From positions 1-33,348 of the forward strand of contig NZ_BOLS01000023.1 of the NCBI RefSeq assembly GCF_016861785.1: a stretch of DNA of 33,348 nt, in the 5' to 3' direction. Position numbers and translations under genes: made by a program. Shown here in pieces: positions 2,051-17,904 of this stretch. The notes beneath the pieces are model-generated. The model was not told where the DNA came from. It did not search any database and saw only the letters and a list, made by a program, of their open reading frames with translations. Position 1 is the first letter of the stretch; each line of letters begins with the position of its first letter. Origin of the DNA: Lacticaseibacillus mingshuiensis. Lineage in GTDB: Bacteria; Bacillota; Bacilli; Lactobacillales; Lactobacillaceae.

Positions 2051-2087
2051 GTTTCTTGTTGACAAGAAACCGCTTACTATATAAAAT
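2051..2087 (+). promoter_or_regulatory. Strong promoter overlapped by a perfect palindrome
   Basis: The -35 box TTGACA (2059-2064) and -10 box TAAAAT (2082-2087) are exactly 17 bases apart. The -35 box sits inside a perfect palindrome, GTTTCTTG-TTGA-CAAGAAAC (2051-2070), with eight-base arms. It begins three bases after the recombinase-like stop codon. No T run follows, so it is not a terminator. It looks like an operator controlling the structured RNA downstream. Confidence 0.7.
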
Positions 2088-2093
2088 GAAGTA

Positions 2094-2420
2094 GAATTCT
2101 CGATTGCAGGTGTAGGCCTTGCTAACCTACTGCTCTCCTGTACAATTTTTCGGAGATCCACCCGGTGCGCCGGGTTCCGAGCATCATCAGCTTTTCCCGG
2201 GGCCGCTTGGGACTAGGATCGATCTCCTAGTTTCAAGGGGTATGAAGCCACGACGGCCACGAGTCTTACAATTGTGGCCAGGGCCGCGGACAGTGACATC
2301 GTCCGTGGACACGAGGTGAAAAGGGTCCCGCCAGTTTGGTCGCATGCTGGCGGTCACATAGGGCACTGCAGTCACGTAATCGCATAAAATCAAAAATGGG
2401 GCCTTTCGGGGCCTCTTTGT
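2094..2420 (+). ncRNA. Candidate large structured non-coding RNA, family not recognised
   Basis: About 330 bases between a consensus promoter and a terminator, without a convincing reading frame. Hairpins I can pair by eye: GTAGG/CCTAC (2112-2130), TCTCC/GGAGA (2134-2156), ACCCGG/CCGGGT (2160-2175), ACTAGGA/TCCTAGT (2212-2231), GGCCAC/GTGGCC (2255-2279), CCGCGGAC/GTCCGTGG (2284-2308, one wobble) and CCGCCAG/CTGGCGG (2328-2353). A long-range stem joins GATTGCAGGTG (2102-2112) to CACTGCAGTC (2364-2373), closing the whole as a multibranch fold. A GGGGCC/GGCCTC hairpin with a short T tract near 2396-2417 would end it. It lacks the conserved cores of RNase P RNA (GAGGAAAGUCC), tmRNA, SRP RNA and T-boxes. 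A known ornate class (raiA, GOLLD, ROOL) or a new one is possible. Function unknown. Confidence 0.65.
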
Positions 2421-17704: not shown

Positions 17705-17721
17705 TGACATTGAAGTGAAGA

Positions 17722-17904
17722 CGGAACTGGGACAAAACTTTTGTTTTGTCCCAGTTCCTGTATAGTGCACTAATGTTACAGCAGTGTCGTGGGCCAAATG
17801 TCCGGGTCCGAGCAGCTAAGGTCCCAATCACCTGGTCCAAAGTTCGGACCTGGCGCTTGGAACACTTACCTGTCGGACCCAAGATCGACATTTGTCCCAC
17901 TTCC
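17722..17904 (-). repeat. Dispersed structured repeat, copy B
   Basis: Inverted copy of the element at 2478-2665, about 92% identical over 178 bases. The outer stem (GTGGG-CAAATGTC with GACATTTG-CCCAC) and middle stem (GGGTCCGA with TCGGACCC) are kept. The inner stem is partly lost, since CGCTTGG of copy A is GATTGG here. The 3' hairpin is CTGGGACAAAAC/GTTTTGTCCCAG, a compensated C-G to A-T change compared with copy A. The T run after the hairpin is poor (GTCTTC), so termination should be weak. It lies between two convergent genes. Confidence 0.8.

Follow-up and report, generated by a model that had tools for sequence, protein, structure and literature searches.

A dispersed family of structured RNA genes in Lacticaseibacillus mingshuiensis and a sister species, with predicted carbon catabolite control

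Introduction

The window, i.e., the whole stretch of 33,348 nucleotides from Lacticaseibacillus mingshuiensis that was analysed, carries at positions 2094-2420 a locus that a sequence-only reading had described as a large structured RNA with its own promoter, operator and terminator. Such a locus raises the question of whether it is a gene in its own right, to which family it belongs and what its RNA may do in the cell. Its standalone character is confirmed, as a structured and apparently non-coding RNA on the + strand is framed by its own promoter and terminator (Table 1). It is one member of a dispersed family of standalone structured-RNA genes of two subtypes, with about nine genes in its own genome and eight in a sister genome. 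As to function, the evidence tips somewhat in favour of sibling small RNAs (sRNAs) controlled by CcpA and acting in trans, a reading in which we infer expression, control and targets.

Copies, subtypes and distribution

The search of the L. mingshuiensis genome (G000) returned 14 matches, corresponding to eight full copies and two halves, each cut off by the end of a contig (C15 and C29). The two halves could be both sides of one gene, so that nine loci are likely and ten possible. Subtype A comprises the window copy, two copies on C3 and both halves (three full copies), and subtype B the copies on C27, C4 and C1 and two on C5 (five full copies). Both subtypes share about 65 nt of 5' end, the inner motifs AGCTTT, GGTATRA and ACATAGRGC, and the terminator, whereas their middles differ. 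The sister genome (G021), from the same genus, contains eight copies, four of each subtype, designated here with the prefix s.

In a collection with one genome per named species (84,980 species), which may omit the window's own or very near records, the exact 5' pattern occurs in seven stretches, all from Lacticaseibacillus yichunensis 33-1. One of these (L059) displays the same pepF-RNA-metallophosphoesterase order as G021, which is thus probably L. yichunensis. A covariance model (R1) built on the 5' domain matched only these two genomes, whether among 30 genomes of the genus, 350 of a family sample or 395 of an order sample, these samples overlapping and the family and order scans using stricter filters than the genus scan. 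Plasmids and phages gave no blastn match to the RNA, neither the exact 5' pattern nor the exact A-specific 3' pattern was found in viral contigs, and a literature search found no published report of this RNA family. The restriction to two species suggests that the function is young or dispensable.

Promoter, terminator and limits of the unit

The start at G2094 was deduced from the spacing to the -10 element and from the point where conservation between A and B begins. The consensus promoter proposed from the letters holds, with TTGACA (2059-2064) and TAAAAT (2082-2087) separated by a 17-nt spacer and agreeing at 11 of 12 positions, and so does the terminator, a hairpin at 2398-2415 followed by TTTGTCG. 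The proposed palindromic operator is not conserved. Indeed, the inverted repeat TTTCTTGT-TG-ACAAGAAA (2053-2070) is entire in the window copy alone, its core being shorter or gone in the promoters of the A-type siblings, and the cre-like box is a better operator candidate.

The limits of the unit were examined by comparing 1400-nt flanks of the copies, upstream and downstream separately. Upstream, only the 35-38 nt directly before the RNA, i.e., the promoter, are common to all A copies (92-100% identity), and nothing is common downstream past the terminator, the A unit consisting of promoter, RNA and terminator. About 165 nt upstream are common to A2, A3, sA2 and sA4, and copies of the B3-B5 type have in common about 95-103 nt upstream and 44-83 nt downstream.

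A cis-acting leader or riboswitch was considered and rejected. The RNA genes neighbour many kinds of genes, with no fixed type downstream, and the nearest downstream gene is convergent in six of the eight full own copies (A2, A3, B1, B3, B4, B5) and on the same strand in two (A1, B2), a mostly convergent arrangement that argues against a leader.

Table 1. Features of the window copy of the RNA gene (window coordinates).
Feature	Position	Strand	Remark
A-type structured RNA gene	2094..2420	+	predicted start G2094
Sigma-70-type promoter TTGACA-17-TAAAAT	2059..2087	+	11/12 consensus positions
cre-like (CcpA) box AGAAACCGCTTACT in the -35/-10 spacer	2065..2078	+	2 mismatches to TGWAANCGNTNWCA
5' domain shared by both subtypes, from which model R1 was built	2099..2198	+	
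Long-range 5'-3' stem, 2102-2113 with 2363-2373	2102..2373	+	invariant in 7/7 A copies
5' hairpin with nearly invariant CCUUGCUAA loop	2112..2130	+	both partners changed in two pairs; all cells paired (100%)
Second stem-loop of 5' domain; inner stem CCCGG/CCGGG 2161-2165/2170-2174	2149..2181	+	two pairs changed on both sides
Internal hairpin	2255..2279	+	one compensatory pair, A1-type vs A2-type copies
Internal hairpin	2283..2309	+	four pairs changed on both sides, A1-type vs A2-type copies
Hairpin, then ACATAGGGC motif common to both subtypes	2328..2353	+	
Intrinsic terminator hairpin, then TTTGTCG	2398..2415	+	preserved in 16/16 full copies

Coding potential and class assignment

The absence of a credible gene, already remarked from the letters, is borne out on the + strand, where no frame of at least 20 codons is common to both subtypes. 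The frames that exist leave a very slight chance that this RNA, or its antisense, serves as a small mRNA encoding a short peptide. Thus, a 30-codon GTG frame is open in all nine B copies, a TTG frame is open in six of seven A copies, and an antisense TTG frame, which starts in the terminator and is preceded by an AGG-rich stretch, stays open in 9 of 16 copies (three A and six B). The + strand frames, however, differ between A and B and have neither an ATG nor a properly spaced ribosome site, whereas 7 of 16 copies lack the antisense frame, which ranges from 31 to 89 codons and is unrelated in sequence between A and B. None of these frames was taken as a probable gene.

No Rfam covariance model reached its gathering score anywhere in the window, which agrees with the earlier failure to fit the RNA to RNase P, tmRNA, SRP RNA, 6S RNA or a T-box; the search of Rfam proposed at that stage thus gave no housekeeping RNA. 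With E values allowed up to 10, a scan of three of the 16 full copies had as best E values 6.3 for the window copy, 0.73 for A2 and 4.7 for B1, all far below gathering scores. The suggestion of raiA RNA found no match near any gathering score either. raiA and other ornate RNA classes have a long stem closing the 5' and 3' ends and many hairpins. The A-type RNAs resemble them in both respects but differ in having no Rfam match, and the closing pairing is absent in most B copies.

Fold and compensatory changes

Folding of the + strand gives -130.8 kcal/mol (z -3.20), a value equalled by 1 of 100 shuffles, the corresponding figures for the - strand being z -1.70 and 5 of 100. The minimum free energy structure has seven hairpin loops, in line with the at least seven hairpins counted beforehand. 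It also contains the 5'-3' stem at the coordinates first proposed. This stem recurs in the A copies, whereas the pairing with the 3' region is mostly missing in B. Indeed, the 5' GAUUG segment pairs with the 3' region with an ensemble probability of 0.98-1.00 in all seven A copies and, among the nine B copies, of 0.99 in one, 0.24-0.41 in two and at most 0.05 in six. On these modelled probabilities, the closing stem appears to be mainly an A-type feature, and as all its pairs are invariant in the A copies, compensatory change provides no test of it there. A helix within the 5' end that both subtypes share (2102-2110 with 2137-2147) is a competing alternative to this stem, with a probability of 0.00-0.02 in the full-length ensemble of the 16 copies.

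The stem of the first 5' hairpin occurs as AGG/CCU, GGG/CCC or GAG/CUC among copies. In our reading of the alignment, a hairpin of unrelated sequence seems to replace hairpin 2328-2353 in B. A pseudoknot between a GCCUUG loop and UAGGGC, judged by eye, is broken in copy sB2. The 5' ends of the RNAs are palindromic: A RNAs start with GAAUUC and B RNAs (L013-L017) with GUUAAC, and in the latter a second, internal GUUAAC (alignment A3, columns 171-176) can pair with the first.

A single global fold for A and B was abandoned, as the centre of the global alignment (alignment A1) is unreliable; pair counts were therefore restricted to the alignment of the 5' domain (alignment A4) and to the alignments within each subtype (alignments A2 and A3). 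Half copies are absent from every alignment but one. Across the 16 copies (13 distinct) of the 5' domain, pairing holds in 99.1% of cells, and four pairs are changed on both sides, in 14 cells. None of 500 shuffles matched this cell count or the covariation score, whereas 71 matched the number of pairs changed on both sides and 467 the pair types. Pairs changed on both sides number 7 of 80 in A copies (3 of 500 shuffles as high; 385 for pair types) and 3 of 107 in B copies (46 of 500; 496 for pair types). Thus, further pair types do not stand out in any alignment, nor do both-side-changed pairs in two of three, and the structures tested came from the same alignments as the counts. The double changes trace to few splits, mostly A versus B and A1-type versus A2-type, most helix pairs being invariant and thus uninformative. 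Some helices may nevertheless be regarded as maintained by compensatory changes. The conservation and covariation expected from the initial reading were thus found, but confined to paralogs and one sister species, a narrower distribution than that test presumed.

Genomic sites, stability and rearrangement

Dispersed copies restricted to two species are also what a selfish or mobile repeat would produce, the fold and promoter then being of no cellular use. This explanation is improbable but has arguments in its favour, as an evidently mobile repeat family of about 188 bp is common in the same genomes and as the site between tsaD and abcF is empty in two less close relatives (G015 and G016), where matches to these genes lie 67 bp apart, leaving no room for the RNA. 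Against it, six of the eight full own copies stand at sites matched on both flanks in the sister (A1=sA1, A2=sA4, B2=sB2, B3=sB3, B4=sB4 and B5=sB1), so that the copies are mostly stable. Only B1 is unmatched, with no sister counterpart within 1400 bp, A3 and both halves matching different sister copies on each side, as after an exchange. Moreover, no transposase common to the sites and no repeated ends were seen beside the copies, compensatory changes preserve helices, and cre-like boxes are carried by three different B promoter contexts as well as by the A context.

The 188-bp repeat is itself structured, with a strong terminator-like hairpin at its end. It occurs in the window at 2477-2663 and 17717-17904 and, with sub-matches counted, has 38 matches in the own genome against 21 in that of the sister. 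It seems to move, given that the orthologous sites beside sA1 and sB3 are without it and have a different hairpin there.

The upstream flank of A3 matches sA2 and its downstream flank sA3, with the two halves combining the sister flanks the other way round. Accordingly, gene orders are abcF-RNA-tsaD and pepF-RNA-metallophosphoesterase gene in the sister, whereas the own genome has pepF-RNA-tsaD and, where two of its contigs end, an abcF-RNA half and an RNA-metallophosphoesterase half. The stretches concerned are L010 5566-6174, the contig ends of L011 and L012, and L019 and L020. This pattern may fit an exchange between two A copies, or an assembly error or chimera at the repeat. That the repeats would matter chiefly as recombination sites shuffling the chromosome is hardly probable. 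The orders are those expected from such an exchange, but this is a side effect of any long repeat, and an assembly error is conceivable with two contigs ending inside the repeat.

Two neighbourhoods deserve description. Directly upstream of the window copy, 1449-2048 encodes a protein in which Pfam recognises a resolvase domain and a helix-turn-helix; its sister counterpart is 93% identical, against at most 39% in the 12 other genomes of the genus with a match. The gene convergent with B5 (L017 3518-4972) encodes what we take, from its motifs, to be a family-1 glycosidase, and adjoins that of a mucin-binding wall protein (L017 1-3345). Sugar genes such as glycosidases are often CcpA targets.

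Homogenisation of the B copies

B copies are 94.3-98.6% identical within the own genome and 95.4-99.4% within the sister, whereas orthologous pairs (B2/sB2, B3/sB3, B4/sB4 and B5/sB1) are only 88.9-90.9% identical. Over a block of about 20 alignment columns (231-251), all five own B copies carry one version and all four sister B copies another, sB2 being one base apart. The B copies are thus homogenised within each species, that is, they undergo concerted evolution. No clear homogenisation is seen in A, where orthologs (A1/sA1, 97.6%; A2/sA4, 96.7%) are as similar as paralogs.

cre-like boxes in the promoters

The cre consensus TGWAANCGNTNWCA is matched with at most two mismatches in all 17 promoters examined, those of the 16 full copies and of the C15 half. 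In A promoters, the box AGAAACCGCTTAC(T/C) begins 29 nt ahead of the presumed start in 8/8, with two mismatches. All nine B promoters have a box with no or one mismatch. Thus, the B3-B5 type has a box with 0-2 mismatches over the -35 hexamer and a one-mismatch box 44 bp further upstream (6/6), B2 and sB2 have one-mismatch boxes at -67, upstream of -35, and the sole cre-like box of B1 is TGTAACCGTTTACG at -86. The 44 bp separating the two box starts in the B3-B5 type (L016 4892-4949 and matching stretches) amount to about four helical turns.

How far such matches exceed chance depends on the promoter. In random 131-nt windows from the own-genome loci (4000 draws, coding DNA included), a box with 0, at most 1 or at most 2 mismatches occurs in 0.2, 2.0 and 8.8%, and in 0.4, 3.2 and 16.8% with the looser consensus TGWNANCGNTNWCA. 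Single dinucleotide shuffles match the observed box in 8.2% (A), 1.1% (B1), 1.3% (B2) and 1.9% (B4) of cases, the A box with its two mismatches thus being weak. The summed match over four representative promoters (A4 half copy, B1, B2 and B4) was reached by 0 of 1000 dinucleotide shuffles and by 0 of 3000 permuted motifs, the latter count being 4 of 3000 for the looser consensus and 1-2 of 3000 for palindromic permutations; the motif was chosen after the promoters had been read. As paralogs are not independent, the number of promoter contexts that carry weight is only about four. The B box over -35 has bases in common with the TTGACA hexamer, and the upstream boxes of B1 and B5, lying between the RNA and a divergent neighbour, might serve this neighbour instead.

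Each of the two genomes has one CcpA gene above the NCBIfam cut-off, so that both a cre-like box at the promoters and the regulator are present, as in a CcpA regulon. The occurrence of the box in every promoter examined supports the prediction that the RNA genes are under carbon catabolite control via CcpA. According to passages of PMC3463425, boxes upstream of -35 tend to activate and boxes over the promoter to repress, with exceptions. CcpA bound at the spacer box between -35 and -10 would then repress A promoters, whereas B1 and B2 have their only box upstream of -35, the position often activating in Bacillus. A bolder and rather doubtful extension is that glucose swaps RNA versions, CcpA shutting off A genes and turning on at least B1 and B2, with RNAs of shared ends and different middles.

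Mode of action and comparison with known systems

At the sequence level, the family displays what is expected of sibling sRNAs, i.e., several homologous standalone genes per genome, each with its own promoter and terminator and no coding frame. They would act in trans, and the most likely mode is base pairing with mRNAs via conserved C/U-rich and loop segments (CCUUGCUAA, CUCCUG and CUUUUCCC), although these candidate seeds are not consistently unpaired (means 0.34-0.62). Several genes with differing sugar tuning would together set one output, multiple copies would provide dosage, and gene conversion would keep the copies alike.

The main rival, unlikely but ahead of the other alternatives, is that the RNA acts by binding a protein, either as a polymerase decoy like 6S RNA or as a CsrB-like sponge, and not on mRNAs. 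The size, strong fold and roughly nine genes suit a titrating RNA, and cre-like boxes are reported, in the sections of PMC8414754 drawn upon, upstream of about one-third of the 6S genes of lactic acid bacteria. The same sections describe these 6S RNAs as present in one copy per species in this order and as built of helical arms round one central bulge. Our RNA is likewise a structured RNA whose promoter carries cre-like boxes, but its many hairpins and copies, its other architecture and the absence of any Rfam match at the locus led us to set aside an identity with 6S RNA (RF00013). The rival can also invoke that no 6S match was found in either genome at E 0.001 or above the Rfam cut-off. However, none of 30 Lacticaseibacillus genomes (G000-G029) has a 6S match at the cut-off of the model, ten having full-length matches below it; the model is thus weak in the genus and a loss of 6S, an idea dropped for this reason, is not inferable.

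For sibling sRNAs controlled by CcpA, the preferred reading, comparable systems exist. RsaI of Staphylococcus aureus is, from the portions of PMC9266662 used, a CcpA-repressed sRNA of 111 nt that pairs with ribosome-binding sites. Control by CcpA in a Gram-positive host (here predicted) and pairing with ribosome-binding sites (here proposed) are points of likeness, whereas our RNAs are 330-350 nt long, in about nine copies and two subtypes, and no link to RsaI emerges from Rfam. Streptococcal csRNAs, which answer to CiaR, have 2-6 copies and Vibrio Qrr sRNAs 4-5, the largest sibling-sRNA family listed in the passages of PMC4211561 consulted having 2-6 members. Like these, the present family consists of several similar, mostly dispersed genes with one regulator (predicted here) and conserved segments in common. 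It differs in its larger copy number, its division into two subtypes, the homogenisation of B copies within species and its presence in two species only.

Significance

If the doubtful swap of RNA versions by glucose were true, this would be an unusually large, partly homogenised sibling-sRNA family, with an RNA-isoform switch driven by carbon source. A family of about nine large, strongly folded RNA genes, found in only two sister species, partly homogenised like ribosomal RNA genes and seemingly wired to the global sugar regulator, would clearly illustrate how a new regulatory RNA is born and amplified in a food-type group of lactobacilli. The birth of sRNA genes, their dosage and their concerted evolution would be testable in two close species, with RNA-free near relatives as natural controls.
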